A stretch of 64,000 nt of DNA, from NCBI RefSeq assembly GCF_026625885.1, contig NZ_CP113068.1:4154001-4218000 (forward strand), given 5' to 3'. How positions within the stretch are numbered: the stretch's first letter is position 1; every line of letters begins with the position of its first letter. A program made the translations under genes and the position numbers. Below, in pieces: positions 38,575 through 64,000 of this stretch. A model generated the notes under the pieces. That model did no database searches, was not told the DNA's origin, and saw only the letters and a list, made by a program, of their open reading frames with translations. The DNA comes from Roseateles sp. SL47 (GTDB lineage: Bacteria > Pseudomonadota > Gammaproteobacteria > Burkholderiales > Burkholderiaceae_C).

Positions 38575-39306
38575 ATGACTTCCATTGTTCTGATCACCGG
38601 CGCCTCGGGGGGGATTGGCCGCGCGCTGGCGCGGCAGTTGACCGCACAGGGGCTCTCCGTCGCCGCCGTCGGGCGGGATGCCGCGCGACTGGCGGATGTC
38701 GAGGCGTCGGTCCACATCGTCGCCGACACCACCACGGCAGAGGGCGCCGCACAAGCCATTGCGGCCTGTGTGCAGGCACTGGGGGCGGCCCCGGGGCAAT
38801 TGGCGCACTGCGTGGGGAGCACACTGATTGCTCCCTTGCATCGCACCAAGCCGGAGGTCTACCGGGAATTGATGCGCGTGAACCTGGACAGCGCTTTCTA
38901 CATGCTGCAGGCCTGGATGGCCGGCTTGAAGGGCGCCCCGGGCGCCGCTGTGTTCGCCAGTTCGGTGGTGGCCCGCATCGGGGTGGCCAATCATGAGGCG
39001 ATTGCCGCCGCCAAGGCCGGTGTGGAAGGGCTGGTGCGCAGTGCCGCCGCGACTTATGCCGCCCAGGGACTGCGCATCAATGCGGTGGCCCCCGGCATGA
39101 CGGACACCCCCATGACCGCTGGGCTTCTGAACCTTCCGGCCGTGCGGGAAGGCGCAGCGCGGCAGTATCCGCTGGGGGGTGTTCAGACAGCGGACCAGGT
39201 GGCCGGCGTACTGCAGTGGCTGCTGAGTGACGGGGCGGCGCGAATCACTGGACAAGTGATCGCGGTGGACGGCGGCTTCACGACGGTGCGCCCGCTGGTG
39301 AAATGA
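38575..39306 (+). CDS. Short-chain dehydrogenase/reductase lacking the catalytic Tyr
   Basis: This 243-residue protein has the SDR cofactor motif TGASGGIG (8-15), VNLDSAFYM and the C-terminal AVDGG. The active-site serine (FASSVV, 129-130) and lysine (K147) are present. At the Tyr position of Y-x-x-x-K there is Ile143 (EAIAAAK). Relatives in LitR clusters seem to share this feature, so it may be a non-redox or atypical SDR. ATG 38575 is preferred over TTG 38560; neither has a strong ribosome site. It closes the light-response set, followed by a strong hairpin. Confidence 0.8.
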   Translation: MTSIVLITGASGGIGRALARQLTAQGLSVAAVGRDAARLADVEASVHIVADTTTAEGAAQAIAACVQALGAAPGQLAHCVGSTLIAPLHRTKPEVYRELMRVNLDSAFYMLQAWMAGLKGAPGAAVFASSVVARIGVANHEAIAAAKAGVEGLVRSAAATYAAQGLRINAVAPGMTDTPMTAGLLNLPAVREGAARQYPLGGVQTADQVAGVLQWLLSDGAARITGQVIAVDGGFTTVRPLVK

Positions 39307-41458: not shown

Positions 41459-42229
41459 ATGCACTCTGAACTCATTCATCTGAAATACAGATGTTTGTCC
41501 ACGTTTCATTGGGCACGCAAGAACATTGCGCTCTATAACGCGGCGATGCTGTTCATTCCCTTCTTTGATCTCTTTTGTGGAGGTCGACGGCGCCCGGTGT
41601 TTTTCGATATCGACAAGACCTGCCCCGAGCTGCGGCGCCTGGATGAGCACCGTGAGGACATCCGCCGGGAACTGGAAGGCTTGTTGCCCTGCCAGGACCA
41701 GATGCCGATGTACCACCAGCTGGACACAGACCTGATCCATGCCTCCGGACGCTTCCACCGGGACAAGCGCTGGAATGTCTTCATGCTGTTCAGCTACGGC
41801 GTCAAGCCGGAGCACAACCGCATGCTGGCCCCTCGCACTACCGCCTTGCTGGACGGCATTCCCGGCCTCGCGCAAGCCTTTTTCTCGATCCTGGATCCAG
41901 GTAAATCCATCCCGGCCCATTGCGCGCCCACGCGGTCCTACATTCGATATCACCTCGCCCTGCGGGTGCCTCAGACCAACCCGCCCTCCATTCGCGTGAA
42001 GGATCAGGTCTACACCTGGAAGCTGGGCGAAAGCGTGATGTTCGATGACAGTTGGGAACACGAGGTCATCAACCACAGCGATGGAATTCGTGCCGTCCTG
42101 CTGGTGGACATCCTGCGCCCGATGCGCTGGCCTGCGTCATGGGTCAACCGATTTTTCTACTATCTGGGGTGCCGCTGGTACGGCCCACGAATCGGCAGAA
42201 ATGCCAATAACTTCCAGATCAAGCTCTAG
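41459..42229 (+). CDS. Aspartyl/asparaginyl beta-hydroxylase family protein (LpxO-like)
   Basis: This 256-residue protein belongs to the Fe(II)/2-oxoglutarate-dependent AspH/LpxO family. An N-terminal hydrophobic segment (NAAMLFIPFFDLF) may anchor it to the membrane. Metal and co-substrate residues are visible as IPAHCAPTRSYIRYHLAL (His, Arg, His) and FDDSWEHEVINHSDGIRAVLLVD (His and Arg). In LpxO this chemistry hydroxylates the secondary acyl chain of lipid A. The protein could equally act on another substrate. No lipid A gene is nearby. Confidence 0.75.
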   Translation: MHSELIHLKYRCLSTFHWARKNIALYNAAMLFIPFFDLFCGGRRRPVFFDIDKTCPELRRLDEHREDIRRELEGLLPCQDQMPMYHQLDTDLIHASGRFHRDKRWNVFMLFSYGVKPEHNRMLAPRTTALLDGIPGLAQAFFSILDPGKSIPAHCAPTRSYIRYHLALRVPQTNPPSIRVKDQVYTWKLGESVMFDDSWEHEVINHSDGIRAVLLVDILRPMRWPASWVNRFFYYLGCRWYGPRIGRNANNFQIKL

Positions 42230-42661: not shown

Positions 42662-43303
42662 ATGGTGACGTTGAACAATACCGAGGCCGAGATTCTGCAA
42701 GCGCGGCTGAAGCTGTATGGCAAGACCCTGGCTGACCTTCAAGGCAAGTCGCTCAACACCGGGCAATATGCCAAGGGCAAGGCAGGCCAGGCGGTGCTGA
42801 CGGGCCATCCGGATGGCGGTGCGGACATCCCCGGAGAAGTTCGCACGGTGAAGGACATCGCGGAGATGAAGTACCTCGGAGGCGTGCCTGACTACCACTA
42901 CACCCAGGAGAAACTGGGCGACTCCCACATTGACTATCCACCGCCACCGCCCAAGGCGGCACTGGCCGCCGTGCAGGCCCATGCGGGTGACGTCTGCAAA
43001 CTGCAGGATGCGCTGGATCCGGCCACCTTGGCCTTGGTGCCCAAGGCCTCGCGCGCCTATCTCACCGGCAACTCGCAAAAGGTGAAGGACTGGGAGCCGA
43101 TCATCAATGCGCTGTCCTTCCCTCAGGACGGCACCGTGGTGAACGCCGGGGACGTGGTGGTGAGCCCCGGTAATCCCCTCATCATCAATGGCCCGGGGGC
43201 TGTGGCCTACAACGCCACCTCCATCACGGTCGAGGTGGGGGGGCAGATTCTGGTGAACACGGAAGTCACGTTCAACGTGGGTGTTTTCAACGTTCTGTCC
43301 TGA
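42662..43303 (+). CDS. First operon gene: small beta-rich protein of unknown function
   Basis: This 213-residue protein has no signal peptide. Its first 130 residues are mixed polar/helical with a PPPPP run at about 97-101. The last 60 residues form short alternating beta strands (GTVVNAGDVVVSPGNPLIIN, ITVEVGGQILVN), which look like turns of a beta-helix or a lectin-like cap. It has a good GAGGAG ribosome site and is 13 bases before the next gene. A comparable beta-strand run, (IRVRSGHVLRM, LVVGRLMLEAGAVVEI), precedes the collagen-like tail of the lipase-like protein downstream, so these may be equivalent modules. I recognise no family. Confidence 0.65.
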   Translation: MVTLNNTEAEILQARLKLYGKTLADLQGKSLNTGQYAKGKAGQAVLTGHPDGGADIPGEVRTVKDIAEMKYLGGVPDYHYTQEKLGDSHIDYPPPPPKAALAAVQAHAGDVCKLQDALDPATLALVPKASRAYLTGNSQKVKDWEPIINALSFPQDGTVVNAGDVVVSPGNPLIINGPGAVAYNATSITVEVGGQILVNTEVTFNVGVFNVLS

Positions 43304-43316
43304 GGGGAGCACCGAC

Positions 43317-44024
43317 ATGGGCAATTCCATCACGACCATCGGGTCGGTCTCGGCTGCGGGCAATGCCGGGCAGGGCGGGGCCGTCGGAACGGCAGGCGGC
43401 GGCGGCGGCAATGGCGCTTCCGGCTCGGTCAACAGCAAGAACCAGTGCACGGCCAGCGGCACGCCAGGCGGCTCCGGCGGCAATGGCACCTTCGGTGGCA
43501 ACGGCGGGGACGGTGGCAAGGGATCACCCGCCATTGGCATCACCTTCACGGCCGCCACCATCACCGGCACCTTGTCCATTCTGACCTCGGCCGGTGCCGG
43601 GGGCAGCGGGGGCGCCGGAGGAACCGGGGGGGCCGGTGGAACAGGCGGCAATGGAGCGGGCGCCAACGGCGATTGCAGCGCCACGGCCAGTGGCAAAGGG
43701 GGGAATGGTGGCAATGGGGGCAATGGCGGGAATGGTGGCTCCGGCGGCGACGGCACCACCGTGACCGTGGTGTACGGAACGCTCAACGGGAACGTGGTGT
43801 GGGGGACTGGGTCTGCACCCACCGGGGCCCCCGGTGGGGCCGGTGGGCCCGCCGGGCAAGGCGGCGCCGCAGGGGTGGGTGGCAGCGGCGGCACCGGTGC
43901 CGGAGGCAGCGGCTCGCCCGGTTCCCCCGGCTCCCCGGGTGCGCCCGGCCAGCCCGGGTCGCCCTGCCAACTGAGCCTGATCCAAAAGAAGTTGTCATCC
44001 GTCCAACAATGGGAGGCGCAATGA
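43317..44024 (+). CDS. Polyglycine/collagen-like repeat protein 1
   Basis: This 235-residue protein is nearly half glycine. Blocks of (Gly-Gly-X)n, with X mostly Asn, Ala, Ser or Thr, for example around residues 125-143, alternate with short beta strands such as ITGTLSILTSAGAGG and VVYGTLNGNVVWG. Near the C-terminus a true collagen-type run of Gly-Ser/Ala-Pro triplets occurs, then PCQLSLIQKKLSSV. (GGX)n tracts can form polyglycine II bundles, as in some phage tail adhesins and springtail antifreeze proteins. It has no signal peptide. GAGGGGAG precedes the ATG and its stop overlaps the next gene. Scattered cysteines could cross-link chains. Confidence 0.7.
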   Translation: MGNSITTIGSVSAAGNAGQGGAVGTAGGGGGNGASGSVNSKNQCTASGTPGGSGGNGTFGGNGGDGGKGSPAIGITFTAATITGTLSILTSAGAGGSGGAGGTGGAGGTGGNGAGANGDCSATASGKGGNGGNGGNGGNGGSGGDGTTVTVVYGTLNGNVVWGTGSAPTGAPGGAGGPAGQGGAAGVGGSGGTGAGGSGSPGSPGSPGAPGQPGSPCQLSLIQKKLSSVQQWEAQ

Positions 44025-44737
44025 CCACCTATGTCATTACCGTCGCCGCAGCCTCCGCTGGCCCGGGCAGGCCCGGATCGGATGGAGAACCGGGGGCCAA
44101 TGGATCGGCCGGCAAGAACGGCAGCTATTCCAAGTCCACGTGTTATCCCTCCGGGAATGGCGCTCCCGGACAGCCCGGTGGGACGGCAGGTGCCGGCTCG
44201 GCCGGCATGACCGGCGTGAATGCCCCGCAGGTGGTCATCTACCTGGGCGGGCTCAGCGGCACGCTCACCATCCTGAGCCAGGGCGGCACAGGCGGCAATG
44301 GCGGAAACGGCGGCCAGGGCGGTGCCGGTGGCAATGGTGGCAATGCGGGCCAGAACCCGCAGGCCTCCTGCCTGAGCCAGGGCTGCACTCAGGCCGCAAG
44401 TGGTGGCGCGGGCGGCAATGGCGGGGCAGGGGGGAACGGCGGCCCGGGCGCCTCGGGGGGCAACGGCGGCGACATCCAGATCTACTACAGCAGCGACGTG
44501 CAGATCAGCAGCATCGCCGCATCCACCATCGGCGGCGCGGGGGGACAGGGAGGCTCTGGTGGTGCCGGTGGTGTCGGCGGCACCGGGGGGATGAGCGAAC
44601 TGGTGCAGGGCTCGCCGCAGCAGACCGCCCCCCCGGGTACCAGCGGCTCGGGCGGATTGCCAGGCCAGAACGGCGCACCTGGCGGTAACGGCCAGGTCCA
44701 CATCACTGCCAAGCCGACGCAAGTGCTTGCAGCGTGA
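44021..44737 (+). CDS. Polyglycine/collagen-like repeat protein 2
   Basis: This 238-residue sister of the preceding protein starts with MTTYVITVAAASAGPG and has a collagen-like GRPGSDGEPGANGSAGKNG at about 15-33. It then has a beta strand unit VVIYLGGLSGTLTILSQ, and three (GGX)n blocks separated by strands (DIQIYYSSDVQISSI). Cysteines occur at STCYPS and ASCLSQGC. The strand-then-Gly architecture LSGTL-x-I-x-x-GG is shared with the previous gene and with the tail of the next. ATGA overlap with the upstream gene implies coupled translation. There is no signal peptide. Confidence 0.7.
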   Translation: MTTYVITVAAASAGPGRPGSDGEPGANGSAGKNGSYSKSTCYPSGNGAPGQPGGTAGAGSAGMTGVNAPQVVIYLGGLSGTLTILSQGGTGGNGGNGGQGGAGGNGGNAGQNPQASCLSQGCTQAASGGAGGNGGAGGNGGPGASGGNGGDIQIYYSSDVQISSIAASTIGGAGGQGGSGGAGGVGGTGGMSELVQGSPQQTAPPGTSGSGGLPGQNGAPGGNGQVHITAKPTQVLAA

Positions 44738-44761
44738 TCGCAAACCCAAGAGGGCGCGGCG

Positions 44762-47659
44762 ATGAGCATCTTTTCCTATAGCGCGCAGGACGCTGCGCTG
44801 TTGGCGGGCATGGCGGAACAGGCGGGTTCGGATCTGGACATCTTGAACCTGCCTCCGGGCTGGAGCGTGGCGCGGACCTTCCGGGACTTCATGTACGGGG
44901 GGCAAGGCTATATCGCGGTGGGGACGCTGCCGTCGAATGGCGCCACCGTGGCGGTCGCTGCGCTGGGCAGTTCCTGGGACGATTTCACCCAATCGTTCAC
45001 GCCCTCCGGCTTCAGCCTGATTCCCACCACCCTGGGCTTGCCGGCCAGTACGGTGCCCGCCTTGGCCAGGCACACGCTTGCCCTCCATCAACAGTTGGCC
45101 GCGTTGGACCGTCCGCTGCCGGACCTCGGCAACGGCGTGCAGCAAAGCCGTGCCATGGCGCTACCGGGCGTCATGTACCGCAACAGCGAAACGTTCAAGC
45201 GCTCGCTCGACGGCTGGTTGGCCAGCAGCCCCGCCACCGGGCACGCCAACAGCGATCTCCGTCTGGCAGGGCAGAACCTGCTGGACACGGTCAAACAGAC
45301 CTTGGCGGCAAGTCGGCCTGCCGACCAGGCTCAGACCCTTCATCACGCCGTATCGCGGGTCCATGAGACGCTGAACGTGGCACTGGCGAGCGTCGATGGC
45401 CGGGTCCAGGCGGGCTACCTGCAGCAATGGAACGGCGTCCAGAGCGGCTTCATGGCAGCACTGCAGCAGGTGGCGCTGATGCAGGTGTTCGCCAAGTCGT
45501 TTCCTGTGGTGTTCGCCGGCATCACCGTGGGCGGGCCGCTGGCCCAACTGGCTGCCGCGTTCTCCCAACCTCAATCGAGCTGGGGCAACGGGACGATGTC
45601 GCCGGTGACCGAACTGGCGGTCTATGCGTTCTCGTCGCCGATGTATGCGGACGGCCTCTTTGCCGGGTCATTCAATGCGGCGCTGCCCACCGCTTTCACG
45701 GTCAACGCCGACGGCGTGGATTTCTTCCCGTCCTCACCGGTGAACAGCGGCACCACCGCGCTGGCACCCACCGGCCAGGCCTACCCCCTGCAGGCGGCGC
45801 TACCGCTGGTCGCCGCGCCCTGGGCCGAGAGGACGGCGAATTTCTACAGTCAGGCGCTGGGATTCCATCTGGCCCGTGCGCCCGCATGCTGTGCCGATTG
45901 CGATGCCACCGATGCGCATCGTGATTTCGCCAGTTTCGCCGTGCAGGCCACACCCAGCACCTACGTGGCCACCACCGCCGCGCAGCTGTCCGTGCTCTGT
46001 TCGCTGGCCTATCAGCGCTTCCAGCATCCGTCCCAAGCCACGACTCCGCCGTCCCCGTGGGTCTTTGCCGCTGACATCGCGGCGGGCGGCGTGACCTGGG
46101 GAGCCGTGTTTGCGAACCCTGCCAGTGGCAGTGTGGCCCTGGCGTTCCGGGGAACGGTGACGGAACAGGAACTGGTCGAACGTGTGGCCGATACGCTGGT
46201 CTATTACCCCTCATGGTTGGGGGCGGGGGCGCCCTCGGATGCCGGCGTGGGCCATGGCATTGGTGTGCTCTACGACAGCCTGCGGGGCACGCTGGCCAGT
46301 GCCATCCAGGTTGGCCGCACCAAAGCGGGCAGTACGGTCGGGCCGCTGTTGTTGTGTGGGCACGATGCCGGCGGAAATCTCGCCAGCCTGGCCATGCTCG
46401 ACCTGACGCTGAACCGCATCCAGGGGCAGCCCGCGCCGTCCCAGACCTATGCCTTCGGTCCTCCGCCATTCGCGCTGATCAGCTTCATGGGGTATTTCAC
46501 CCGGCAGGTGCCGGCCCATTCTGTTTTCCTGATCGCGCGGACAGCGGATGTGGTGCCGCAATTCCTGCTCAACGGCACGGTCTACGGGGTCGGTGATGCA
46601 GTGACGCTCACCGGGGGGGATGACAATCCTTACAACGGCAACAGCTTCCACGCGATCAGCAGCTATATCGACCTGCTGAATCCCCAGTCCACCGAGGTAC
46701 GCCGTCCCAAGGCAACGTTGGCGGACCTGTCCTCGGTCGCGGGCCTGCCGGCCCCGGCGCATACGCTGTTCAGTCGCGCCCTGGCGCAACGCGGTCTGAC
46801 GCCGACCCAGGTCGTCCGCGGGGTGCTCGACAGCGCCTCCACGGAGGACGGTGTGTTGTCGGTCGCCTGGGCTGCCCGAGCGCGGGTCGCCTCCAGCCTG
46901 CCCTCCGTGGGCATGGATGCGCGCCGGATGAACGCCTATTTTGCGGTGGAGGGCATCCGGGTCCGATCGGGCCATGTTCTGCGTATGCAATCCGAGGAGG
47001 GCCATGCACTCCATCTGGTGGTGGGCCGTCTGATGCTGGAGGCCGGTGCCGTGGTTGAAATCAAGAGCAAGCTGGTGGCCCATGTCGGTCAGTTGGAGGG
47101 GGCTCCGCCCGGACAACACGAAACCATCATCGCCTTCATCGGGCAGGACGGAACGCCCGGCGCTGCCGGAGGTCCCGGACTCCCCGGCGCCAACGGGAAC
47201 GTCGGCGCACCGGGCGGCTCGGGGGGCATCGGCGCTGCTGGCGGGGCCGGGTCGAAGGCCGAGGACAGTGTGGTCAACATCGGCGTATTGAGTGGCAGCC
47301 TCCTGGTGGTGGCCCGCGGCGGGCTGGGTGGGCAGGGCGGTCGAGGTGGCGCCGGTGGCCATGGTGGCGCCAGCCTGGGCGGGGGACGGGGCGGCTCGGC
47401 CGGGGCCGGTGGCGCTGGCGGCGCCGGTGGCGCGGGAGGGCAGGGGGCCGCTGTTGCCATTGTTTTTGACCAGATGGGTCCCGACGCGGAAGTGCAGGTG
47501 CAAGCGGCCCCGGCGACCGGGGGGCTCGGTGGTGCCGGCGGCCAGGCGGGTGCCCCGGGCGCCGGCCACCCGGACGGGGGCAGCGCACAGCCGGGCCCGA
47601 GCGGGGCGGTCGGACCTCCGGGCACCCCCAGCACGGTGACGGTCCGGCAGCGCGCCTGA
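44762..47659 (+). CDS. Tandem degenerate class 3 lipase domains fused to a collagen-like tail
   Basis: This 965-residue protein has no signal peptide. Domain 1 (about 1-360) and domain 2 (about 390-650) both resemble class 3 lipases. Domain 2 shows VALAFRGTVTEQELV, the nucleophile elbow CGHDAGGNLASLAM and YAFGPPPF. The catalytic serine is replaced by Asp535. Domain 1 has VFAGITVGGPLAQLAA, with Thr255 at the serine position, and VYAFSSP. Both are therefore probably inactive. After a beta-strand segment (about 700-795) the last 170 residues are collagen-like and (GGX)n-rich, with LSGSLLVVARGG. It may bind a lipid or glycan and tether it to the polyglycine fibre. A GAGGG site precedes the ATG. 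Confidence 0.75.
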   Translation: MSIFSYSAQDAALLAGMAEQAGSDLDILNLPPGWSVARTFRDFMYGGQGYIAVGTLPSNGATVAVAALGSSWDDFTQSFTPSGFSLIPTTLGLPASTVPALARHTLALHQQLAALDRPLPDLGNGVQQSRAMALPGVMYRNSETFKRSLDGWLASSPATGHANSDLRLAGQNLLDTVKQTLAASRPADQAQTLHHAVSRVHETLNVALASVDGRVQAGYLQQWNGVQSGFMAALQQVALMQVFAKSFPVVFAGITVGGPLAQLAAAFSQPQSSWGNGTMSPVTELAVYAFSSPMYADGLFAGSFNAALPTAFTVNADGVDFFPSSPVNSGTTALAPTGQAYPLQAALPLVAAPWAERTANFYSQALGFHLARAPACCADCDATDAHRDFASFAVQATPSTYVATTAAQLSVLCSLAYQRFQHPSQATTPPSPWVFAADIAAGGVTWGAVFANPASGSVALAFRGTVTEQELVERVADTLVYYPSWLGAGAPSDAGVGHGIGVLYDSLRGTLASAIQVGRTKAGSTVGPLLLCGHDAGGNLASLAMLDLTLNRIQGQPAPSQTYAFGPPPFALISFMGYFTRQVPAHSVFLIARTADVVPQFLLNGTVYGVGDAVTLTGGDDNPYNGNSFHAISSYIDLLNPQSTEVRRPKATLADLSSVAGLPAPAHTLFSRALAQRGLTPTQVVRGVLDSASTEDGVLSVAWAARARVASSLPSVGMDARRMNAYFAVEGIRVRSGHVLRMQSEEGHALHLVVGRLMLEAGAVVEIKSKLVAHVGQLEGAPPGQHETIIAFIGQDGTPGAAGGPGLPGANGNVGAPGGSGGIGAAGGAGSKAEDSVVNIGVLSGSLLVVARGGLGGQGGRGGAGGHGGASLGGGRGGSAGAGGAGGAGGAGGQGAAVAIVFDQMGPDAEVQVQAAPATGGLGGAGGQAGAPGAGHPDGGSAQPGPSGAVGPPGTPSTVTVRQRA

Positions 47660-47696
47660 CACGGCCCACAACCCTTTTGCACAGGAATACGCAGCC

Positions 47697-50600
47697 ATGA
47701 ACCAGGCCACCCGTCCGGAGCACTTGGGTCGCTCTTCTGCGCCCATCCTGATCAATGGCGCGAGCCTCGATCCGACCGTGGCCGCGCTGGGCCTCGCGGT
47801 AGGGCTGCTCCAGCCCGCCGGGGCAGGGCCGGTCTATGCGCTGAATACGGCCTGGTTCGCCGATCCGGTCGGCAACATCGGACAGGCATTCAAGAGCAAC
47901 GGCGCCGAACTGGCCAACCTGCTGGCGCAATTGCTGGGGCAGGTGGGGGGGCATGCCTTGGGCATTCCGGTACGAAACCCGGGCAGCCTGGGACAGTGGA
48001 TGCCCATCAACAACCCCGCCACCAGCCAGCCGACCGGGCTCTATCTGGTCAGCGACACCGACCCCAAGGGGAACCAGGTGTTCGGCCTGGGGGTGATGTA
48101 CCTGAGCACCTTCACCAGCACCGGGCTGGCCAGCGGCCCGGCGAGCATCGAGGTGTCCCTGTGGGGCTTGATGCCGCTGGTCACGCTCGGCCAGGGCAAT
48201 TTTGGCCTCGCATTGGGGCAGGCCGGCTATCCGCTGCAGGTGGGCATTGCGGTTGCGGCGGCGGATGGCGCGCCGATCGTGGACCAGGACGGACTCTCCT
48301 TCAACGGCGGCAAGATCACCGGCAGCCTCGATCTCGCCGCGCCCTCGGTCGACATCTCGGTGCTGGTGCAGCAATTGATGTTGCCCACGGCCACCACCCC
48401 ACGCGACTACACGCTGGCAGACCTGGCGGCGATGTCGTCCATGGAGCTGATCAGCACCATCGCCACGCTCGGGGTGATTGCGCTGACCGACCTGGTGGGG
48501 GATGCGCCGCAAGCCCAGTACCTGCTGCCGGTCCTGGGCCTGTCGCCGAAGGTGCCCGGCAGCCCGACCCTGCTGCCACTGCTGCGCTGGGACACGGTCG
48601 TGGCCCAGGCGGTCTCCGGCGGTGATGCTGCGCAGCCGTTCATGAGCTGGTTTGCCTCGCTGTTCTCCGACCCCACCCTGGCCAGCAACTGGCTGGGCTG
48701 TATGGCCGGGTTGATCGGCGGGCAGCCCAGCCAGGTGGGTGGCCAAGGCTCGCGTGAAGATCCATTCACCCTGCCGCTGCTGGACCTCCCGGGCATTGGC
48801 AGCCTGGATTTCAGCGCTGCGACCACCGTTGATGCGGCCGGGCTGCGCACGTTCTTTCCCGGCTTGGGAGTGCAGGCCGATCCGGTGGCGCTGGGCGGTG
48901 CGGCGTTGCTGCACTTTGGCGGGGCACTGGAGTTGGGCGCCTTCAAGCTCTCGTCCACCCAGCCGGCCATTGCCCCTCAGATCCGCTTTGAGGCCGGGCT
49001 GAGCCTGACGGGACCGAAGGCCGATACGCCGCTGTTCTCCGGCAGCATCGGGAGTGATACCTACGTGTTCGGCTCACTGGTCGCTGGGCTGGGCATCGGC
49101 GTGGATGTCGGTGGCACGGTGGTCCTGCCTCGATTCCAGCTGCGCAAGGTCACCACCCCGAATGGCAGTTTCGCCAGTCTGGACCTGCTTCAGCCCGGTT
49201 CCTTGGTCAACCAGGCCCTGACCGAGGTCTACTCGCTGATTGCAGCGGCATTTACCGAACTGTTCGGCAGCACCGCCGCCAGCTTTGGCGGTTATGCCGC
49301 CGCCTTGGTCGGTGTGGCCGCGCCTCCCACTCAGGCGGCTCAGTGGCCGAGCAGCCTGTCGCCGCCCTTCAGCGCTGCGGGCATCACCACGTCTTATGCC
49401 GATCCCGTAGGCGCCTTGGGCGCCTACTATGCCAAGCTGCTGTTCGGCGGTGTGCAGGTCAACGGCCAGCCGGCGTTCCAGCCGCTGCTGCAGGCCGCTG
49501 CCAGCCTGCTGGCGCAGTCAGGCCCTGCCACGGTGAGCGGGAGCGGCACTCAAGAAGATCCCTGGCTGGCGCCGCTCTCCACCACGCCGGTCTCATTGCT
49601 GGCCTATGTCCTGCCCTCGTCCGACAGCACGGGGGAGGGCTCGCTGGTGATGGGTCTGGCGTTGGCACCTTCACTCGACATCGTCGGTGGACCGACCGTG
49701 TCGATGGCCGTATCCCTGGAATTGCTTCGGCTGGACATTGCTGCAGGCGGGCAAGGCATTGCCTCCGCGCAGGTGTTGCCCGCCCTCGGCTGCGCCTTCC
49801 TCCTTCCGAAGGGCTACACCACACCCGCCGTGGCCGGTGCCCAGCTGAGTGTGGCCAGCAGCGGCTTTTCGACCCGGTGGGTACGGGGCCAGGGTTGGAT
49901 CTGGGACATGCATGTGGGCCAGCCAGCAGTGGTGGTGAACGGCGCCTCCATGCCGGTGGGCAGCGACATGCTGTTCACCGATGCCAGCGGGCTTGAAGAC
50001 CTTGTCACACAAACCGCGGCGACCTTTGCACCGCTGTTGACCCGTCTGCTCGGCGTGGCGGCCTACCGCAGCGGGACACGCGCCGGACTGGCGCTGACCG
50101 GTGTGCTGGGTTTGCTGCCGAATCTGGAAGGGCAGATGCCCCAGGGGTTGACATGGCCGGCGACCATGCCAACGCTGACGCCCGCGAATTTCAACGATCC
50201 GCTGGGCGACATCCAAGCGCAGTTGGCCGCAGTGTTCAGCACGCCCCAGCAGGCCCAGGCGGCGCTGGGCTTGCTGGGGTGGGCGGCGTCCACCGCCGCG
50301 CAGGCCCCGGCGATTGCCGGCGCCGGGATTTTTGCCGACCCGTTCCGTGTTCCGATCGGACTACCGCTGCCCTTCGACCTGGGCGTGTGGATCGATCCGG
50401 CGGCTTCCTCGGTTGGGCTGGGATTGGCGCGGGGGCTGTCCACCACGGTGGGGACCACGGTCTGCGATGTCGCGCTGGCCGCCAATCTGGCCGAGTATGC
50501 GCTCGGTGCAACGCCCGCACCGACCCGCTCGATGCTGCCAGCAGCCGTGCTGTCGGCCACCTTCAGCGGGGTGGATGGGGCGCCGTTGATTGATGCGCCT

Positions 50601-56600: not shown

Positions 56601-57203
56601 GGCGATATCCACGGGTGGGACCGGGATGTGCAAGTGGTGCGCGCAGGTTTTGATAGCTTCCTCGGCGATGGCTACCTGCTCCATCCACAAGCCGCGCCGC
56701 GTTATGACCTGGCCCGTTCGTTGCGGCCGCGCCTGACGGAGCTCAGCCTGGCGGAGCTGATCCAGCACAACCGGTTGGACGCACTCGCCGGCATCGTGCC
56801 CGGCTGGCTGGACACGGTGTTCTCTGCGGACGTTCGGAGTGTCCTGATTCAAGTCGGCGGCGTTGCCGCCACCCCTGATGCGGCAAAGGCCGTCGTGCTG
56901 TCGATCGGCGCCAAGCCAGCCTTGCCGGTGGAGGCGCGGACACTCCCGCACGGGGTCCTTCTGGTCTATGCCGTGGACCCTGCGGCAGTGCCGCCGTCTT
57001 CCGAGCTGGCGGTACGAACGCGCGATGCTGCGGGGCTGCAGGTGCTGTCGGTGTTGGGCTTGACGCAAGCACCCGCGACCGCAGGCATCGGGACGGTCCA
57101 GGTCTCCAATTTCGGGGTACGTCTGGGCAGCAGCACCACGCTGTCCAGTCGGGTGACGATGCACACCCGGCCGGTGGCCGACATGGAAAAGGCGTTGACA
57201 TGA
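47697..57203 (+). CDS. 3168-residue modular giant protein (DUF6603-like)
   Basis: This 9.5-kb gene encodes a very long, uncharged-looking protein rich in Gly, Ala, Leu and Val, lacking a signal peptide. Residues 300-1200 contain recurring units of about 260-265 residues. Each has an amphipathic helical part beginning DP[VL]G (D569, D834; also D56) and, about 50 residues later, a GxG...DP[FW] turn (D355, D621, D881), then beta strands. Further less regular units continue to about 2100. Residues 2300-2510 match my memory of DUF6603: FVVTLGGYNPVFSPPSWYP and RLGFNWPVTGSVSISGGAYF. The last 600 residues are Pro/Ala-linked beta domains. Its function is unknown. It may be a filament, lipid-shielding or scaffold protein. 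It ends overlapping the next gene (ATGA). Confidence 0.7.
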   Translation: MNQATRPEHLGRSSAPILINGASLDPTVAALGLAVGLLQPAGAGPVYALNTAWFADPVGNIGQAFKSNGAELANLLAQLLGQVGGHALGIPVRNPGSLGQWMPINNPATSQPTGLYLVSDTDPKGNQVFGLGVMYLSTFTSTGLASGPASIEVSLWGLMPLVTLGQGNFGLALGQAGYPLQVGIAVAAADGAPIVDQDGLSFNGGKITGSLDLAAPSVDISVLVQQLMLPTATTPRDYTLADLAAMSSMELISTIATLGVIALTDLVGDAPQAQYLLPVLGLSPKVPGSPTLLPLLRWDTVVAQAVSGGDAAQPFMSWFASLFSDPTLASNWLGCMAGLIGGQPSQVGGQGSREDPFTLPLLDLPGIGSLDFSAATTVDAAGLRTFFPGLGVQADPVALGGAALLHFGGALELGAFKLSSTQPAIAPQIRFEAGLSLTGPKADTPLFSGSIGSDTYVFGSLVAGLGIGVDVGGTVVLPRFQLRKVTTPNGSFASLDLLQPGSLVNQALTEVYSLIAAAFTELFGSTAASFGGYAAALVGVAAPPTQAAQWPSSLSPPFSAAGITTSYADPVGALGAYYAKLLFGGVQVNGQPAFQPLLQAAASLLAQSGPATVSGSGTQEDPWLAPLSTTPVSLLAYVLPSSDSTGEGSLVMGLALAPSLDIVGGPTVSMAVSLELLRLDIAAGGQGIASAQVLPALGCAFLLPKGYTTPAVAGAQLSVASSGFSTRWVRGQGWIWDMHVGQPAVVVNGASMPVGSDMLFTDASGLEDLVTQTAATFAPLLTRLLGVAAYRSGTRAGLALTGVLGLLPNLEGQMPQGLTWPATMPTLTPANFNDPLGDIQAQLAAVFSTPQQAQAALGLLGWAASTAAQAPAIAGAGIFADPFRVPIGLPLPFDLGVWIDPAASSVGLGLARGLSTTVGTTVCDVALAANLAEYALGATPAPTRSMLPAAVLSATFSGVDGAPLIDAPSGIGTLGSLTLGVTVGWTQSGFMLQPLATLQDVNFTGYLPASLLALPSTSDAPAVIDIFNSQLNLAFGAVLEQFGSNATFKTVLDLMARLGLVQVDSSTGVVTGLNAGGFNALLSSPLDFVCNGLLRLLANDAGPGLPNQPPPQQELFDLLWQLLGVTPPAAPVSLLALGEALGLLTDADTGWAPIPSAWMQLLAHPAQALPQMFNALWTDKTTLAALLTQWQSNLDGLAYGPFVLSVKNGNLLSLGVPETAPVVVGGIVALSGAASFNLQTGDLETVFSARLTPVGIGLSTQLGYPLGKGATSPRFTAFATFGGTGLPAPLPVQFWPFDTSTFVSQLSKVAPAYALGTFVTGVVEPLLLNPYPLAQAVATAFGLAWQDNNKTWYLKSPLGLFEQPLQWLLNDAVVGLNGQLNIAQLSKVLSLIPAATSGSGISVSPVPNGVRVAGLPYGLAVDFLADTGLQRFSVTPQLTAPLALSVDQARIDSLQFSLSLDPSFQPGFNAQLTVSGQVDNSRLSVTTGYDRGFTLALGTTVGQPAFVILPFPGWQTLVMQALQAAVPVLTQQLTSALLDALSKGGAADFAQRLRTAGTALQVQALVQQLAAVSKPGDVPTQALSWLGSRLSTTNAPQTISAVVTLLAGLINGVTQQGSLLAYQPSTRLPVTLLAGLDTTTTPGQLGLWVTLSPPTLPLVQLRLNRSGLSLPFNPDGTPTGGAPVFSLQASVCTPIEGDQGPALSIGFDSAATRFTLAVDPLGGGAQPSPLSRALLPRPFGLTDAKAIGDAAAQWALAILINVVPRYVSLVVLNTPVVSKWLTTPLFPGQQGPSAGQVLVGSQVLLLQNNKYLLNSFEALSHLSIQQFLAGLLSSLLSTRIKVLTLNKTGGLWIGPQPGTSGNYGLVLQLPDLVLKSSVPTFTLQLGANDAAWIKSTGLDADQLQPGIGVFVPVDATTPHFDQLRLLLVNVGVDFAGSEANPLVNLSRFKMQSVGPRGLVTFDFAQPGVVTNYGGAILLKGIAPSLVPNAGGAGANPVAQNLLGSGSDQSTDASNPPVSPTFSATAAYGHQVSPSTGGLWVQLYDAQGQPSEQVVVPVQRSFGPLYVNSIGAGWQQANEILDLLFDGSVSLAGLKLDVIGLDVGMPVTDPTNFDAYQLDLRGLDVSFNGGGVDIGGGLLKTTDAIPSYTGQLVVKTSGFSLVALGSYAELTTPQGTTPSLFAFVNLNIPLGGPPPFFVEGLAFGFGYNRDITIPPIGGIQQFPLVQGALSSDTFGRDPTPDSALQVLDSVVAPALGRYWVAAGLRFSSFQLLDTFALLLVKFGRSFEIDLVGVTAASLPPKVPRSSAIAYMELGLIVSFKPDDGVFYAEAQLTPNSFLFAPACRLTGGFATYLWFNPPPSADGPSAGDFVVTLGGYNPVFSPPSWYPNPPRLGFNWPVTGSVSISGGAYFALTPSSVMAGGSLSVQFHSGPLRAWLNAGADFLIAWKPFWFSADMYVDVGAAFQTSLLGISITLSIDLGCTLHLEGPPVHGYCKVHWFVISFTIPIGDDGSQDRATLAWDQFAKSFLPPAQSPTMAGSQAPVGALAADVDPTPSPIKPQALTGLLSTLPDGTWVIQSLPFVLSVETAIPATATTVDQWGGDALPSGPLMGVQPCSRLNVDTPLQVSVLDANAKPVALPTATFNVQALQGSAPAALWGNVPFDPAAPTASAGQLLPNTINGVQVSAVADVTTNVIGPMDLQQVFGFTLLPPDWLPFGSGPRYSPAAPMDQSNALAKLMNSIMLPSVISAREAILAALQAEGLPVVAEPDLSMVAALGWAVYQAPPTLAQLTETLAALPGWNLPAASAPSAPPALTEAPSLAPPTLLGGLRRYRMPTADAGRATAGGASGAVSPGAFRVVRALVGGRRWDPLAPSPEAHQSAKDFGLAAVPAPMGQASELQVVLQEGTLLACSMDARGRCKLGNDGPLPVLALCLGDNDAYLGSMRLDSQSAQTAPAGTATLVLQGLPYQAGDIHGWDRDVQVVRAGFDSFLGDGYLLHPQAAPRYDLARSLRPRLTELSLAELIQHNRLDALAGIVPGWLDTVFSADVRSVLIQVGGVAATPDAAKAVVLSIGAKPALPVEARTLPHGVLLVYAVDPAAVPPSSELAVRTRDAAGLQVLSVLGLTQAPATAGIGTVQVSNFGVRLGSSTTLSSRVTMHTRPVADMEKALT

Positions 57204-58732
57204 GCCAGGATCAAGACATTCCGGTGGCCACCGGTACCGATCTGCAGCCGGGGCAAATCGAGTTCATCGAGTCCTGCGAGCCTCCGCTCGTGGCCGGGAC
57301 CTATCAGCTGAGCTGGACGCAGCAGGTCCTGAACGTGACGGCGGACCCGGCGCCGAGCTATAGCGGCACCCAGGCTTTCCAGGTGTCGGGCCCGCGCTTC
57401 ACGCTGCCGGCCGACAGCGTGCAGTCGGTCTATCCACCAGCCTCGCAGAAGGGCAATTTTGCAGACGTCATGCCGCACATCGTCCTGAACCGGTCGACGC
57501 TGCCCTGGGAGCGTCCGCTTCAGGGCAATACGCCCTGGCTGGCGCTGCTGTTACTCACCGATGAAGAACTGCAGGGCGCTCCGATTCTCTCGATTCCGGT
57601 GTCTGAACTGCTTGCACCGCCCTCCGGCACCACGGGCCCTGCCATCCCGGCCAGCGCCGTGACCCCGCAAGAGGCACAGAGCCTGTGTAACGCCATTGAT
57701 GTGTCGGCTGCAGTGTTCACCGGCCTGGCGCCCACGCTGCAGGAGGTGGCGCTGCTATGCCATGCCCGCCGGGTCAACACCGACAACAAGGAGGAACTGG
57801 GCATCCAGGCCAACGGTACGTTTTCGGTGGTGATCGGCAACCGGCTGGTGCCTGCGCACGTGACCAGTGACACCGCCTACACCGCCTTGCTGGTGTCTTT
57901 GGAAGGTTGGACGGCCCAGTTGCCGGGGTATGCGAGCGACGGCACCACACCCACCAGCAATACCGGCACGTCAGCCCGACTGCGGCTGTGCGTGCTGGCG
58001 AGCTGGGGGTTTCGCGCCAGTGCGGGTGTGGGCAGCTTCAGCGGCCTGATGCGAAATCTCTCCCAGCCGGGAGGCATCGGCATGCTGCAATATTCGCACG
58101 GCACAGATGTGGGCAATGCCGTGGCGCAGACCGCGCTGGACATCGGCTTCGTGCCGCTGGTCAACAACACCCGCTTCGGAGAACAGACCTCTTCCTGGTA
58201 TCGCGGCCCGCTGTCTGCTGCGCCGACCAATCCATCGGCCGTGCCGGCGGCAAGCTTCAGCGACACCCTGACCCGTTACGACCCGGCGACAGGGCTGTTG
58301 GACCAGAGTTATGCCGTGGCGTGGCAGATCGGCCGATTGCTGGGGCTGGCCGATGCGGCCTTTGCGCGGTCGATCTTTGATTGGCGCCGCACGGTGATGC
58401 AAGGCCAGCTGGCTCTCCAATCACAGAGCGCCCGCCGGGCCACTCTGCCCGACGACCCCGCCATGGCCCGTTTGACGGCCACTCGACCCGCCGATGTGTC
58501 ACCGGCCTTGCAGGCCCAGGCCACCGTGTTCGACGTAGCGCGCCATTACTTGTTGACCCCCGACAAAACGGCTCCGACCTTGCCCAAGGTCACCCCCCAT
58601 GCGCGCCGCGGTGATGCCTTGCGGTCACAGCAGCTGAAGGCCCCGGCAGTACGGCCCGGCAACGCCCCGGCCAATGCTTCCAGCGACCCGCTGTTGCGTC
58701 TGATCGACCATGTGCTGGGGGGGCAGTCGTGA
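57200..58732 (+). CDS. Unknown operon protein, 510 residues
   Basis: The protein is soluble, beta-rich in its first half (GTYQLSWTQQVLNVTADPAPSY, FTLPADSVQSVYPP) and helical in the second. A C-terminal tail is basic and Pro/Ala-rich, ending LLRLIDHVLGGQ. There is no signal peptide or membrane helix. Notable segments are PHIVLNRSTLPWERPL and NTPWLALLLLTDEEL. It is translationally coupled to the giant gene and 31 bases before the next one. No family is recognised; the order suggests it works with the giant protein. Confidence 0.65.
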   Translation: MSQDQDIPVATGTDLQPGQIEFIESCEPPLVAGTYQLSWTQQVLNVTADPAPSYSGTQAFQVSGPRFTLPADSVQSVYPPASQKGNFADVMPHIVLNRSTLPWERPLQGNTPWLALLLLTDEELQGAPILSIPVSELLAPPSGTTGPAIPASAVTPQEAQSLCNAIDVSAAVFTGLAPTLQEVALLCHARRVNTDNKEELGIQANGTFSVVIGNRLVPAHVTSDTAYTALLVSLEGWTAQLPGYASDGTTPTSNTGTSARLRLCVLASWGFRASAGVGSFSGLMRNLSQPGGIGMLQYSHGTDVGNAVAQTALDIGFVPLVNNTRFGEQTSSWYRGPLSAAPTNPSAVPAASFSDTLTRYDPATGLLDQSYAVAWQIGRLLGLADAAFARSIFDWRRTVMQGQLALQSQSARRATLPDDPAMARLTATRPADVSPALQAQATVFDVARHYLLTPDKTAPTLPKVTPHARRGDALRSQQLKAPAVRPGNAPANASSDPLLRLIDHVLGGQS

Positions 58733-58763
58733 TCCTCCCCTTCAGCCACTTCCGGAGAGCCGC

Positions 58764-59699
58764 ATGAAATCTGCCATTGACCGCACTCGGCAACTGGCCG
58801 ATCTGGCCGGCGTCGCTCTGCTCCAGGCTTCACGGGCGGTGCCGGGGGTGAGTGCGGCCCTCGAGACCCATCCGCAGGCCCGCCAACTGGCGCAGTCCGT
58901 CCAGCAGCCCCCGCCCGCGTTGCCCCAGAACTGCGTGAACTGGTTGGCCCAACTCGTGCTGCTGTATGGCGTCCCGTTCGACTATCTGGTGCCGGTGGCG
59001 AGCATGCTGCCGCCGGAGTCCATCCGCTACTTCTACCTGGACCAGAACTACACGAATCGCCTGATTGATGGTGCGGTGAGCATCGGGGTGAGCTCCAGCG
59101 TCGAGTCGCTGGCCTTGCTCGGCCAGATCGAAAACATCGTGAATCAGACCCTGCAGAATCTGACCGCAGTGCGAGCAGGCCTGACCGGCGCGGTGGCGGC
59201 TGCACCCGCCGGCCCGCCGTCCGGCTTTCTGCTGCGGTCCGCAGCGGTGTCCGGGTGGCCCGGCATCGAGGTCACCGCCACCGATGCCAAAGGCGGCAAG
59301 GTCGGCCTGCTGCGACTGGATCGACTCGCCACGGATGTGCTGCTGTGCCTGTTCAACGGCACCCCCGCCGAGGTGCGCATCCATCAGCCCTCGGAAAGCC
59401 TGCATTTCGGTGTCATCGACGACGGCCAGGGGCACTATTCATCGACCTTGCGATATGTGAGCGGTTCGCAGGCGGGCCAGCAAATCGGCACCCAGACCGT
59501 TCCCGTCACCATGCGGAGCGGCACGATGAGTGACGTCGTGGACGTCACCAAGACGGTCAGCTCGATCACGACCGCCTTGACGGCGGCCAAGGCGCTTCCT
59601 CCGCAAGGGGTGACCAGCGCCGAATTCGCCATTGAAATGGTGCAAAGCGCGGGCGTCCAGCCGTTCACGCCTCAGGCGTCCAAAGGGGAGGGCGCATGA
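58764..59699 (+). CDS. Unknown operon protein, 311 residues
   Basis: This 311-residue protein starts at an ATG with CGGAGAG upstream, preferred over an earlier in-frame codon at 58710 inside the previous gene. Residues 50-115 include VNWLAQLVLLYGVPFDYLVP and IRYFYLDQNYTNRLIDGAVSIG, then a helical stretch of hydrophobic and polar residues. The second half is beta-rich with WPGIEVTATDAKGGKVGLLRLD and ends in a Ser/Thr/Pro tail. I do not recognise the family. Its stop overlaps the start of the 1249-residue protein. Confidence 0.65.
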   Translation: MKSAIDRTRQLADLAGVALLQASRAVPGVSAALETHPQARQLAQSVQQPPPALPQNCVNWLAQLVLLYGVPFDYLVPVASMLPPESIRYFYLDQNYTNRLIDGAVSIGVSSSVESLALLGQIENIVNQTLQNLTAVRAGLTGAVAAAPAGPPSGFLLRSAAVSGWPGIEVTATDAKGGKVGLLRLDRLATDVLLCLFNGTPAEVRIHQPSESLHFGVIDDGQGHYSSTLRYVSGSQAGQQIGTQTVPVTMRSGTMSDVVDVTKTVSSITTALTAAKALPPQGVTSAEFAIEMVQSAGVQPFTPQASKGEGA

Positions 59700-62600: not shown

Positions 62601-63445
62601 ACCAGGTGGCGGCGCTGCAGGCGCTGCTGGATGCCATCGACGTCACCTTGTGGAAGACCGACCCGCTGGGTCAGCCCAACAGCGGCAATCTGTCGGTGCT
62701 GGTGGGCCGACCGCTGGCGGTGGTGCGGATGGCTACCTCGCTGGGCGTGGCCGGCGACCCCTGGGTGCGCCAGGATTGGGCCAGCACCGGCCTCAATAAC
62801 GATAACGGCCTGACCCAGACTTCGCCGCAGGTGAGGGTGGGGGACCACGGTCTCGATTCCAACGGCACCACCGGCTATTACCTGGGTGACGACTACAGCT
62901 GTTTTTTCGCCTCACGTGGTTACACGCCCAGCCTGGGAACCTTGCGCCGACTCATCTCCAGCGGTGTTGGCAGCACGGCTGAACGCCTGGCCCATGCGGT
63001 ACGGACCTTGCCACAACTGACCACGCCGGGAACGTCCAATCCCTATGTGGTGACCGACGCGACCTATCCGCTGCAGGCCGACGGCAACACGCGACAGTAC
63101 CTCACGGCGCTGGTGGACCCGCGCGGCCAGATTCCGGTCGTCTCGGGCATCCAGCCCGTCGAGTACCTGGCCTTGCCCGCCGGACCCGTCAGCGCTGCCC
63201 TGCAAAGCATGTTCGTCACCTTCCGCATGGGCCCGCTGTTGACCGACCCGGTGAAGCTCACGATGCCGCTGCCCGGCGCGGTCGGCGGCACCTGGACCTG
63301 GATCGAACGCACCGGCGTCTCCGTCTGGCGCGAGGACGGCAACATCGTGCAGCCCGGCGGTGGTGCCACCCTGCCGGACACGCCGCCGACACTGCGCGAA
63401 GGCTGGCTCAAGCTCGGCGGCGCCTTTGCGAGCAAAGGAAACTGA
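59696..63445 (+). CDS. Unknown operon protein, 1249 residues
   Basis: This large protein has no signal peptide and is Trp/Pro/Thr-rich with many predicted beta strands. Early motifs are LHLTWTLPSALRSG and EFPPAPNRWLITRSFV. A coiled coil spans about residues 400-495, (INATQQQLDQAQAELLSLQQA and TEIDGLKAQLASDRSTLGTLL). The C-terminal part has KLWVVDAFGQVLKAID and NRTGVSVWRED-like beta structures, with SNGTTGYYLGDDYSCFFA near 1060. A scaffold or fibre-base role is possible but speculative. Its ATG overlaps the previous stop (ATGA), and the next gene starts two bases after its own stop. Confidence 0.65.
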   Translation: MTAIVNPIWAGPCLWVPMYPEALLIGTPNQTGATWANTSMDYSALPYGTPAAGPFTTNGGTPLTGLHLTWTLPSALRSGLQPDAEGAVEFPPAPNRWLITRSFVAQDGDAPTLTAWVLQSDYTGADGTTSWPDPTGEVNYTGLGKVFTLASWQALPGAQPAFLQAIAPGNVAFAAVYANVGNVFAFYDPLPDSAQGTYAYSVLGWFATPSDDPLFGAGSGFTDGTQWQALMDGLDWTTLTSVTAAQAAWQDWLQSNPITGGPPLTPAQGQWASQTLCQAFLHSIEWKGNNYAYPLYTDVAHSPNPPAVAIGSNAAEALAAWIASTMPAAVQEEVETMLLAFQNSLIFDYATDRAKFEMVTQAARFGSLPTGDVWVVSRPGDANVSLNAQGGNSTLPLTSPQTQLLVSINATQQQLDQAQAELLSLQQALYAALWKQINWAPRTGIPKSQITAYVQQLTAPGTGSIPTKQTEIDGLKAQLASDRSTLGTLLGKDYELSSIKAPRSFAPMDPVVLVAGAGTDSKLAQPGAFAGDPGAAGRFTGQTLTSLTVAVPPGSSTLVTLDGSDLQPVLLAGSGIPKECPQFWVETLLLDPANARWLARLAYGKAGVSDPSEDQLQALTTVIQAQQALPFSGEGLALADGRLLAAAVGFQGVPPSAIAVDPWVTPWTPVYLDWQVGWSPSAAGDNPSGMLKDWSLDDVDYVWTGSTIGTPTDVYTGRTTLTPNQAIGLNVSIEKFLAVPANVQQLLQFDVTALQQTATALTNLDVLAQSLSGLNDQFGMRLAQPTSIIDSPQAAMTGGVSGYIPAATGKQFYPLRAGHFTVQKLWVVDAFGQVLKAIDTNINVRPVVSQSMKTASVPGTAQLVPRITQSSQLAAWLVDATNDALPSNSSDATSPLCGWLLPNHLDSSLTVFDAAGNNLGALIQIENDQGQAVRWDAAPGSGAALGAPPAIHNTHLAGLVNGILAQGINQVAALQALLDAIDVTLWKTDPLGQPNSGNLSVLVGRPLAVVRMATSLGVAGDPWVRQDWASTGLNNDNGLTQTSPQVRVGDHGLDSNGTTGYYLGDDYSCFFASRGYTPSLGTLRRLISSGVGSTAERLAHAVRTLPQLTTPGTSNPYVVTDATYPLQADGNTRQYLTALVDPRGQIPVVSGIQPVEYLALPAGPVSAALQSMFVTFRMGPLLTDPVKLTMPLPGAVGGTWTWIERTGVSVWREDGNIVQPGGGATLPDTPPTLREGWLKLGGAFASKGN

Positions 63446-63446
63446 G

Positions 63447-64000
63447 ATGTCCAAGCTGCTGATTCACCGGGCGTTGGTCGAAACATCCAACACGCTGCTG
63501 AGCTACTCGGTGGCGCCGGACTCCCTGCCGTCCGGCGCCGTTGGCATGCTGGCCTTTGGCGCGATGAACAACGGGACGGACAACGTGGTCTTTTCCCGCG
63601 CGAACAACGACAGCATCACCATCACCTTGCCTTCGAACCTGACCACTGCGCTGTCGGCCGTTGGCTACCGGTCCCTGGATCCTTCCACCTGGAGTATCAA
63701 TCCTCTGGCGGGATCTCCCGGTTCGTTCATCGTTCGGCCCCTGCCTGCCAGCGTCACGCTCAAGGCGGGGGAGGGGCTCGCGGTGCAGCTCACACAGATC
63801 CAGGTCGACGGGACGCAGGGAAGCACCTGCCAGGTGGAGATTGACGAAAGCATTGGTGACGACTACGGCAGCATCGAACTGCCGGTTGAGATCACGGGCC
63901 CCCAACTGGAAATTTCCGCACTGGCCAGCCCGGCCACCGTGACACTGGGCCAGCCCTCGACCATCAGCTTCACAGCGACCGGTGGAAGCCGTGTGGAACT
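63447..64000 (+). CDS. Unknown operon protein, truncated by the window end
   Basis: The frame is open from ATG 63447 to the window edge, giving at least 184 residues. AAAGGAAACTGAG supplies the ribosome site. The protein starts MSKLLIHRALVETSNTLL without a signal peptide. The first 120 residues are beta-rich (TITLPSNLTTALSAVGYRSL, PASVTLKAGEGLAVQLTQ). A second beta domain of Ig-like look begins at ISALASPATVTLGQPSTISF and runs off the end. It continues the operon, so more genes probably lie beyond 64000. Confidence 0.6.
   Translation, partial: MSKLLIHRALVETSNTLLSYSVAPDSLPSGAVGMLAFGAMNNGTDNVVFSRANNDSITITLPSNLTTALSAVGYRSLDPSTWSINPLAGSPGSFIVRPLPASVTLKAGEGLAVQLTQIQVDGTQGSTCQVEIDESIGDDYGSIELPVEITGPQLEISALASPATVTLGQPSTISFTATGGSRVE

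Follow-up and report, generated by a model that had tools for sequence, protein, structure and literature searches.

A conserved four-family gene core with an exchangeable enzyme gene, the DUF6603 system, at a locus of Roseateles sp. SL47

Nine closely packed genes in Roseateles sp. SL47

A stretch of 64,000 nucleotides (C1:4154001-4218000) from the single-contig, 6.39-Mb genome of Roseateles sp. SL47, here called the window, carries nine closely packed genes on the + strand (42662 to 64841), the last of which crosses the window end. The locus belongs to type Ia of what is here called the DUF6603 system, a modular and widespread set of genes which is apparently undescribed, judging from the open PMC literature; this literature excludes most subscription journals and contained no paper under the name DUF6603. 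A first-pass annotation of the window had proposed a nine-gene scaffold or fibre system of co-directional genes with overlaps or very short gaps, and the intergenic distances were indeed -23 to +37 nt. The starts of genes 3, 6 and 8 overlapped the preceding stop, and so did that of gene 7 if the first ATG was used. Terminator-like sites in 44100-64000 were not enriched (13 found versus 10.4 expected from shuffles) and none was located inside a gap.

Genome G253 has the same gene order; seven of its genes were compared by tblastn and gave protein identities of 59-77%, and both polyglycine genes of G253 aligned with the two in the window. Because order and protein identity recur in G253, the nine open reading frames (ORFs) are not chance ORFs. 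In the ORF list, gene 3 had been masked by a longer ORF beginning at GTG 43445.

Among the window proteins scanned (gene 9 in its complete form, gene 3 outside the scan), clear Pfam matches were obtained for the giant encoded by gene 5 and for the gene 4 product only. The giant scored 480 bits against a DUF6603 (PF20248) gathering cut-off of 27 (E 9e-144), and its earlier description as a 3168-residue modular protein was borne out (Table 1). PF20248 lies inside the giant and is itself only a domain of unknown function.

Table 1. Genes of the locus and linked features. Coordinates refer to the window unless L002 is given.
Feature	Coordinates	Strand	Evidence or remark
Asp/Asn beta-hydroxylase family protein, LpxO/OlsC-like (type Ia accessory)	41459..42229	+	Pfam PF05118 E 3.8e-41
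Gene 1, 213 aa, no family (type Ia accessory)	42662..43303	+	relatives in clade
Gene 2, polyglycine protein 1, 235 aa, 36% Gly	43317..44024	+	start ATG 43317
Gene 3, polyglycine protein 2, 238 aa, 32% Gly	44021..44737	+	start ATG 44021; overlaps gene 2 stop
Gene 4, two alpha/beta-hydrolase modules (Lipase_3) and C-terminal polyglycine module	44762..47659	+	Pfam Lipase_3 4e-17
Gene 5, 3168-aa giant	47697..57203	+	DUF6603 at residues 2057-2548; related repeats within ~319-969
Gene 6, core protein (P0007 family)	57200..58732	+	in many genomes a fusion with gene 7
Gene 7, core protein (P0008 family)	58710..59699	+	alternative start ATG 58764
Gene 8, core protein (P0009 family), 1249 aa	59696..63445	+	profile relatives
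Gene 9, Ig-like protein in variable binding slot	63447..64841 (window ends 64000; L002:1447-2841)	+	MG2 7.5e-4, Big_7 0.098, both below cut-off
Acyl carrier protein (ACP)	L002 ~2897-3214, just past window end	+	after gene 9
Ketoacyl synthase	L002:3211-4431	+	after ACP

A core of four families in a fixed order

A profile of gene 8, built from 22 proteins, was used to scan 84,980 species genomes and gave 123 loci, the best 80 of which were kept. The other families were sought in the ORFs of these 80 loci by iterated profile searches. Four families are here regarded as the core, namely the DUF6603 giant (gene 5) and genes 6, 7 and 8. All four were present in 65 of the 80 loci, always on one strand, in the order 5-6-7-8 (n = 60) or permuted (n = 5). 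The 15 loci short of the full core displayed gene 8 alone (n = 6), with DUF6603 (n = 4), with gene 7 (n = 3) or with DUF6603 and gene 6 (n = 2), and after a recheck with relaxed thresholds either the limit of the retrieved DNA or permuted order can account for 13 of the 15. At the places expected for genes 6 and 7, locus L031 contained two unrecognised ORFs. The two genes were a single gene in many loci.

The 80 loci belonged to 14 named bacterial phyla, with 4 loci without phylum; one labelled as archaeal was a 12.7-kb contig that grouped with bacterial rows in the gene-8 tree. Some loci were located on plasmids. The DUF6603, gene-6/gene-7 and gene-8 proteins are co-encoded, mostly in one fixed order, and the gene directly before DUF6603 is often an exchangeable enzyme gene. 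Gene order kept across phyla was the very finding that the first-pass annotation had named as support for a system. Its idea of nine obligatory genes was not sustained, the core being four families, the gene-9 family being common but variable (49/80 loci, in up to five neighbouring ORFs) and genes 1-4 having been found in a single clade.

The association was also followed from DUF6603. Within the order, 6 of 300 genomes gave a match, a count that takes in the window's own genome and one match below the family cut-off; the figures were 9 of 397 for the phylum (the window's own counted) and 10 of 296 for the phylum of a Streptomyces genome (that genome counted). Fifty-nine further relatives, searched before these and including 15 of the same genus, were all without the domain. 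Twenty distinct genomes were tested, leaving out the window's genome, G372 (reached via gene 8) and the sub-cut-off G201, for which no core was seen in L127. The full core was present in 12 of the 20 (G253, G298, G403, G442, G462, G534, G558, G572, G581, G932, G962 and G974). The remaining eight (G204, G320, G790, G845, G922, G924, G989 and G1001) had DUF6603 proteins of ~670-1160 aa and look like a second type, type II. A gene-6 relative followed DUF6603 in six of these eight, three of them detected by a hidden Markov model, and the six relatives together (A7) matched the gene-6/7 profile over ~200 columns (profile-profile E 1.5e-9). Five type II genomes contained a third protein of ~1560-1940 aa that could not be related to gene 8. 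The G924 locus was cut by its contig, and in G204 the gene in between was not resolved. Relatives of the giant occurring routinely without the other eight genes had been considered contrary to the idea of a system; they are not alone as a rule, because 12 of 20 had the full core and six of the other eight kept a gene-6 relative, but the nine-gene set is not universal.

In Streptomyces olivoreticuli (G372, C1) five DUF6603 matches were seen, at ~74 kb, 92 kb, 8305 kb, 8717 kb and 8734 kb. Four of the five made up two pairs of identical score, located close to opposite ends of the chromosome in the manner of terminal inverted repeats.

The enzyme slot and the binding slot

The gene directly upstream of the DUF6603 gene is termed the enzyme slot, which is variable and is occupied by gene 4 in the window. 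Twenty-four slot proteins, chosen mainly as long, plausible ORFs, were scanned; the sample is non-random and no random-neighbour control stands behind the hydrolase counts. All slot genes except one (23/24) overlapped the DUF6603 gene or sat <70 nt from it. A hydrolase family was matched above the Pfam cut-off in eight: EEP in L040, L043, L064, L074 and L082, M64 in L131 and L132, and trypsin in L021. Four others (L027, L072, L120 and L128) were MBL-fold-like, their best NCBIfam matches (E between 4e-12 and 1e-13) all falling short of the model cut-offs, giving a hydrolase match, strong or by fold, in 12 of the 24. Weak matches were obtained in three (HNH in L070, PhoD in L133 and alpha/beta hydrolase in L079), WD40 in L134, and nothing credible in the remaining eight (L020, L038, L050, L068, L073, L081, L086 and L129).

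Exchangeable Ig-like or tail-collar proteins were often found beside the core, mostly after gene 8, in the binding slot. Thirteen of the 80 loci contained tail-collar-type ORFs (n = 27), of which some preceded the core; the one member checked gave Pfam 4e-15. A beta-propeller match below cut-off was obtained in L019. Precomputed domains of gene-6/7 relatives were considered for the 120 of 390 shown. CBM2 was listed in P0045, where by sequence reading it is an insertion between the gene-6 and gene-7 parts, and DNRLRE/CBM96 in P0083, P0089, P0100 and P0119. Both domain types are usual outside cells.

A few genes downstream of a Streptomyces core, L083:19485-21650 displayed a sub-cut-off Peptidase_M91 match (4.1e-5) and a weak NCBIfam match to the XopG family.

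Lipase modules and polyglycine proteins

Gene 4 resembled the class 3 lipases in its family match (62.9 bits versus a Lipase_3 cut-off of 22) and in the Asp and His positions of its second module, which were retained in 10 of 10 aligned sequences. It differed from them in its nucleophile elbows, where the catalytic Ser had no match. Module 1 was without a Ser nucleophile in 10/10, Thr or Gly being there, and the elbow of module 2 carried Asp in nine sequences (GHDxG[GA]) and Cys in one (GHCGGG). Epoxide hydrolases and haloalkane dehalogenases typically have Asp elbows of the GHDxG form; module 2 may accordingly be an active enzyme whose nucleophile is unusual. Judging from the alignment, the nucleophile is plainly lost in the first module only, and of the earlier description as a doubly degenerate lipase the half concerning module 1 stands. 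The related claim that no catalytic motif is present was incomplete in view of the Asp/Cys-Asp-His set of module 2, and of the flanking ACP gene, the synthase gene with Cys-His-His motifs and the hydroxylase-family gene.

Genes 2 and 3 and the tail of gene 4, described earlier as polyglycine/collagen-like, were compared in an alignment of 13 sequences. The two polyglycine proteins, the gene 4 tail and their relatives had a common layout, consisting of a Gly-X-Y block and Gly-Gly-X blocks (runs of 4-8 repeats) with short hydrophobic stretches between, and the modules were conserved over three phyla. A polyglycine-II sandwich is described for phage gp38 adhesins (PMC12892980). The likeness of the modules to the T2-type gp38 or S16 adhesin lies in Gly-Gly-X blocks between short strands and is one of repeat type only; polyglycine protein 1 gave no PDB sequence match below E 0.038. 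Gp38 is a phage protein on the tail fibre, whereas the polyglycine proteins here belong to a bacterial operon.

The type Ia clade and its lipid genes

The DNA upstream of giants was read in 17 further genomes. Relatives of genes 1 and 4 were present in eight (Janthinobacterium, two Azospirillum, Acidobacteriaceae ZG23-2, Niveispirillum, Neorhizobium, a Rhodospirillum metagenome-assembled genome (MAG) and an Eremiobacterota MAG), which together with the window and G253 makes 10 genomes, eight of them with recognised polyglycine ORFs. Since the other 9 of 17, including those with the giants of Aquimarina, Taibaiella and Azospirillum agricola (L144), were without recognised gene 1 and gene 4, the giant alone does not imply the set of genes 1-4. 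In the gene-8 tree (FastTree, with long branches elsewhere) the 10 fell in a 12-row branch with 100% local support, which also holds L013 (upstream not read) and L015, the A. agricola locus in which the set is absent or changed. Genes 1-4 were found in this clade only, which spans three phyla. Gene-1 relatives were present in 10 of the 11 clade members with the upstream DNA read (not L144), with 26-74% identity for those compared.

Within the same 12-member clade, a ketoacyl-synthase gene followed the core in nine, ACP ORFs were found in eight and a hydroxylase relative was located near the cluster in eight. The synthase of the window contained all three motifs, TGCASSNHA, NAHGTGT and KSMHGHALGA (Cys-His-His); simple motif patterns missed one or more of them in some relatives. 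It scored 409 bits versus a cut-off of 387 for the PRK07314 subfamily (beta-ketoacyl-ACP synthase II) and remained below the fabF equivalog cut-off (424 of 494). The hydroxylase belonged to the wider Pfam family and was below the NCBIfam equivalog cut-offs for LpxO and OlsC (99 of 500 and 151 of 450 bits).

Some further genes were seen in the clade. In L008:15244-20359, after gene 9, the genes for an ACP, two ketoacyl synthases, an LpxO-like hydroxylase, a dehydrogenase and a second hydroxylase-like protein stand in a row. An AMP-dependent ligase-like gene (by eye) followed the synthase in Azospirillum and Neorhizobium (L010:16826-18514 and L014:16774-18402). In an Eremiobacterota MAG a 1998-aa open frame with a weak ketoacyl-synthase match (L148:2-5995, - strand), cut by the contig end, was divergent from the gene-1 relative.

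Predicted structure and location of the core proteins

A DUF6603 homologue of 872 aa was modelled as a large antiparallel beta sheet. Its top Foldseek match was the SlpA outer-membrane protein, with TM-scores <=0.30 among the matches listed. The predicted structure of a fused gene-6/7 homologue (pLDDT 86.8) had no clear PDB match, and no credible Pfam match besides DUF6603 was obtained in the core proteins scanned.

N-termini were counted as strongly hydrophobic at a value of >=2.3 over 15 residues within the first 60, using mechanical ORF starts and leaving out long N-terminal extensions except for DUF6603. Such termini were found in 0/66 gene-6, 0/24 gene-7, 1/69 gene-8 (borderline), 0/52 DUF6603 and 0/73 gene-9 proteins, a total of 1/284, in agreement with the first-pass statement that signal peptides are not evident. 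Among the window proteins, the peak 19-residue hydropathy was 1.91 in the giant and then 1.70 in gene 4, where isolated membrane segments are possible.

A modular enzyme-carrying assembly and its alternatives

The DUF6603 system is tentatively regarded as encoding a modular, probably extracellular assembly that carries a hydrolase, a function inferred from genes and sequences. The interchangeable hydrolases and the binding-type domains are the reason why such an assembly is favoured over the scaffold or fibre, intracellular or unconventionally exported, of the first-pass annotation, an idea that keeps some probability (below). The patchy spread of DUF6603 (9/397, 10/296 and 0/59 genomes) and the plasmid loci were counted in the same direction, as were the synteny of the core, its partial retention in type II, the near absence of hydrophobic N-termini and the polyglycine modules shared by three phyla. 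A fixed core with exchangeable enzyme and binding proteins resembles the logic of toxin or enzyme delivery, and the tests for sheath, phage and defence genes set it apart. The extracellular contractile injection systems likewise have a conserved core with exchangeable enzymes and collar or fibre proteins, but here a sheath was without match in 18 of 40 carrier genomes and the core proteins had no PHROG match.

The mechanism may be depicted as follows: The core proteins would assemble into a large particle or surface complex, whose release would be independent of the Sec pathway, through lysis or by a route of unknown kind. The complex would bear the slot enzyme, and the variable proteins would provide its aim. 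In the window the enzyme carried would be the two-module lipase-fold protein of gene 4, whose polyglycine tail might form polyglycine-II bundles with the two free polyglycine proteins, like those of the phage gp38 adhesins. The beta sheet of the giant might hold lipid from the linked ACP, ketoacyl synthase and hydroxylase.

Several observations speak against an exported, enzyme-carrying assembly. No hydrolase match was obtained in 9 of the 24 slot proteins, and the short upstream ORFs of other loci were outside the scan. Trypsin, MBL and EEP enzymes occur also in intracellular conflict systems, and the MBL slot proteins matched Avs1a and 6A-MBL models, below cut-off. One of the 120 gene-6/7 relatives shown (P0074) was listed with PAS_4, a sensor-type domain. 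In locus L071, from a Saprospiraceae MAG, DUF6603 and gene 8 are present, an alpha/beta-hydrolase-like ORF (by eye; 9211-10053) comes directly after DUF6603, and neither gene 6 nor gene 7 was recognised within the following 3.6 kb. The lipid link was seen in one clade only. In some loci of Nitrospira and Syntrophobacteraceae, neighbouring proteins from other families had, by eye, a signal-like start. Export route, localisation and particle are all deduced for a system known here from its genes.

A bolder version of the enzyme-carrying assembly would be a new class unlike the contractile systems, in which the DUF6603 giant and the unplaced core families form a particle that is loaded with exchangeable hydrolases and aimed by exchangeable adhesins, and in which the type Ia giant also holds a dedicated acyl lipid that the linked ACP and synthase produce; as a whole this is doubtful. 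If enzymes are indeed carried out of cells, Streptomyces, Azospirillum, cyanobacteria and other environmental bacteria would possess a delivery particle of a new kind. It is rare for a gene system to keep its order over 14 named bacterial phyla and yet lack a functional account. Because several families are unplaced, one of them with a confident predicted structure and no clear match among solved structures, and because the system is divided into a fixed core, an enzyme slot and a binding slot, its function is testable by ordinary deletion, localisation and co-purification.

A lipid-carrying system, in which the giant is an apolipoprotein B-like or bridge-like beta-sheet protein that collects a special hydroxylated acyl lipid from the linked ACP, ketoacyl synthase and hydroxylase, and the other core proteins act as container or docking parts, is unlikely. 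The long antiparallel beta sheet predicted for the DUF6603 homologue recalls apolipoprotein B and the large lipid-transfer proteins. There was, however, no sequence match to these, the model is that of an 872-aa homologue, the Foldseek scores were low, and a large sheet is a common arrangement. Outside the clade few synthase matches were near the core (L061, L063, L066, L119 and L120), and the slot enzymes elsewhere are proteases, nuclease-type and MBL proteins.

The scaffold or matrix of the first-pass annotation, that is a fibre, sheath or surface layer to which no enzyme is attached as cargo, would suit the very large beta-rich proteins, the polyglycine/collagen-like modules, the Ig-like proteins and the top rank of SlpA among the Foldseek matches. 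We find it distinctly unlikely, given the hydrolase matches in the slot of half of the loci scanned.

An intracellular conflict or defence system, with the slot hydrolase as effector and the large proteins either detecting invaders or keeping the effector inactive, appears quite improbable. The exchangeable trypsin, MBL, EEP and HNH-type enzymes would fit it, as would the patchy spread, the locations on plasmids and chromosome ends, the several copies in some genomes and the one PAS_4 annotation. Against it stand the lack of any PADLOC match in the eight proteins scanned and of any credible Pfam match besides DUF6603 in the scanned core proteins; tail-collar and carbohydrate-binding modules also suit the cell interior poorly.

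A contractile injection system, phage tail or prophage remnant can hardly be entertained, in spite of the tail-collar-type proteins, of a sheath match (PF04984, E<=1e-3) somewhere in 22 of 40 carrier genomes and of phage-baseplate-like genes near one core, since the other 18 carriers gave no sheath match (the window's own genome was outside the search), the sheath was >240 kb from the core or on another contig in the four genomes with comparable positions (G335, G337, G340 and G372), eight of the nine window proteins (gene 3 not scanned, gene 9 cut) were without PHROG match, no relative was found in IMG/VR at the sensitivity used and a gene-6/7 protein had no INPHARED match at the sensitivity used. 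The baseplate-like genes are two phage baseplate V-like genes which, with a DUF4280 gene, precede the core by ~9 kb on a plasmid of Paenibacillus polymyxa (L005:1156-6151); they are considered a coincidence because the other genomes argue so.

Neighbouring genes

An AcrB-type efflux pump gene (8002-11172, +) in the window is unrelated to the DUF6603 system. Just upstream of the hydroxylase gene, a 621-aa protein (39484-41349, +) had no Pfam or credible NCBIfam match and no tblastn match in the G253, G298 or G320 stretches. A short-chain dehydrogenase (38560-39306, +; Pfam adh_short_C2) clusters with a related gene of the Janthinobacterium locus L008, and that relative adjoins the ACP and synthase genes.

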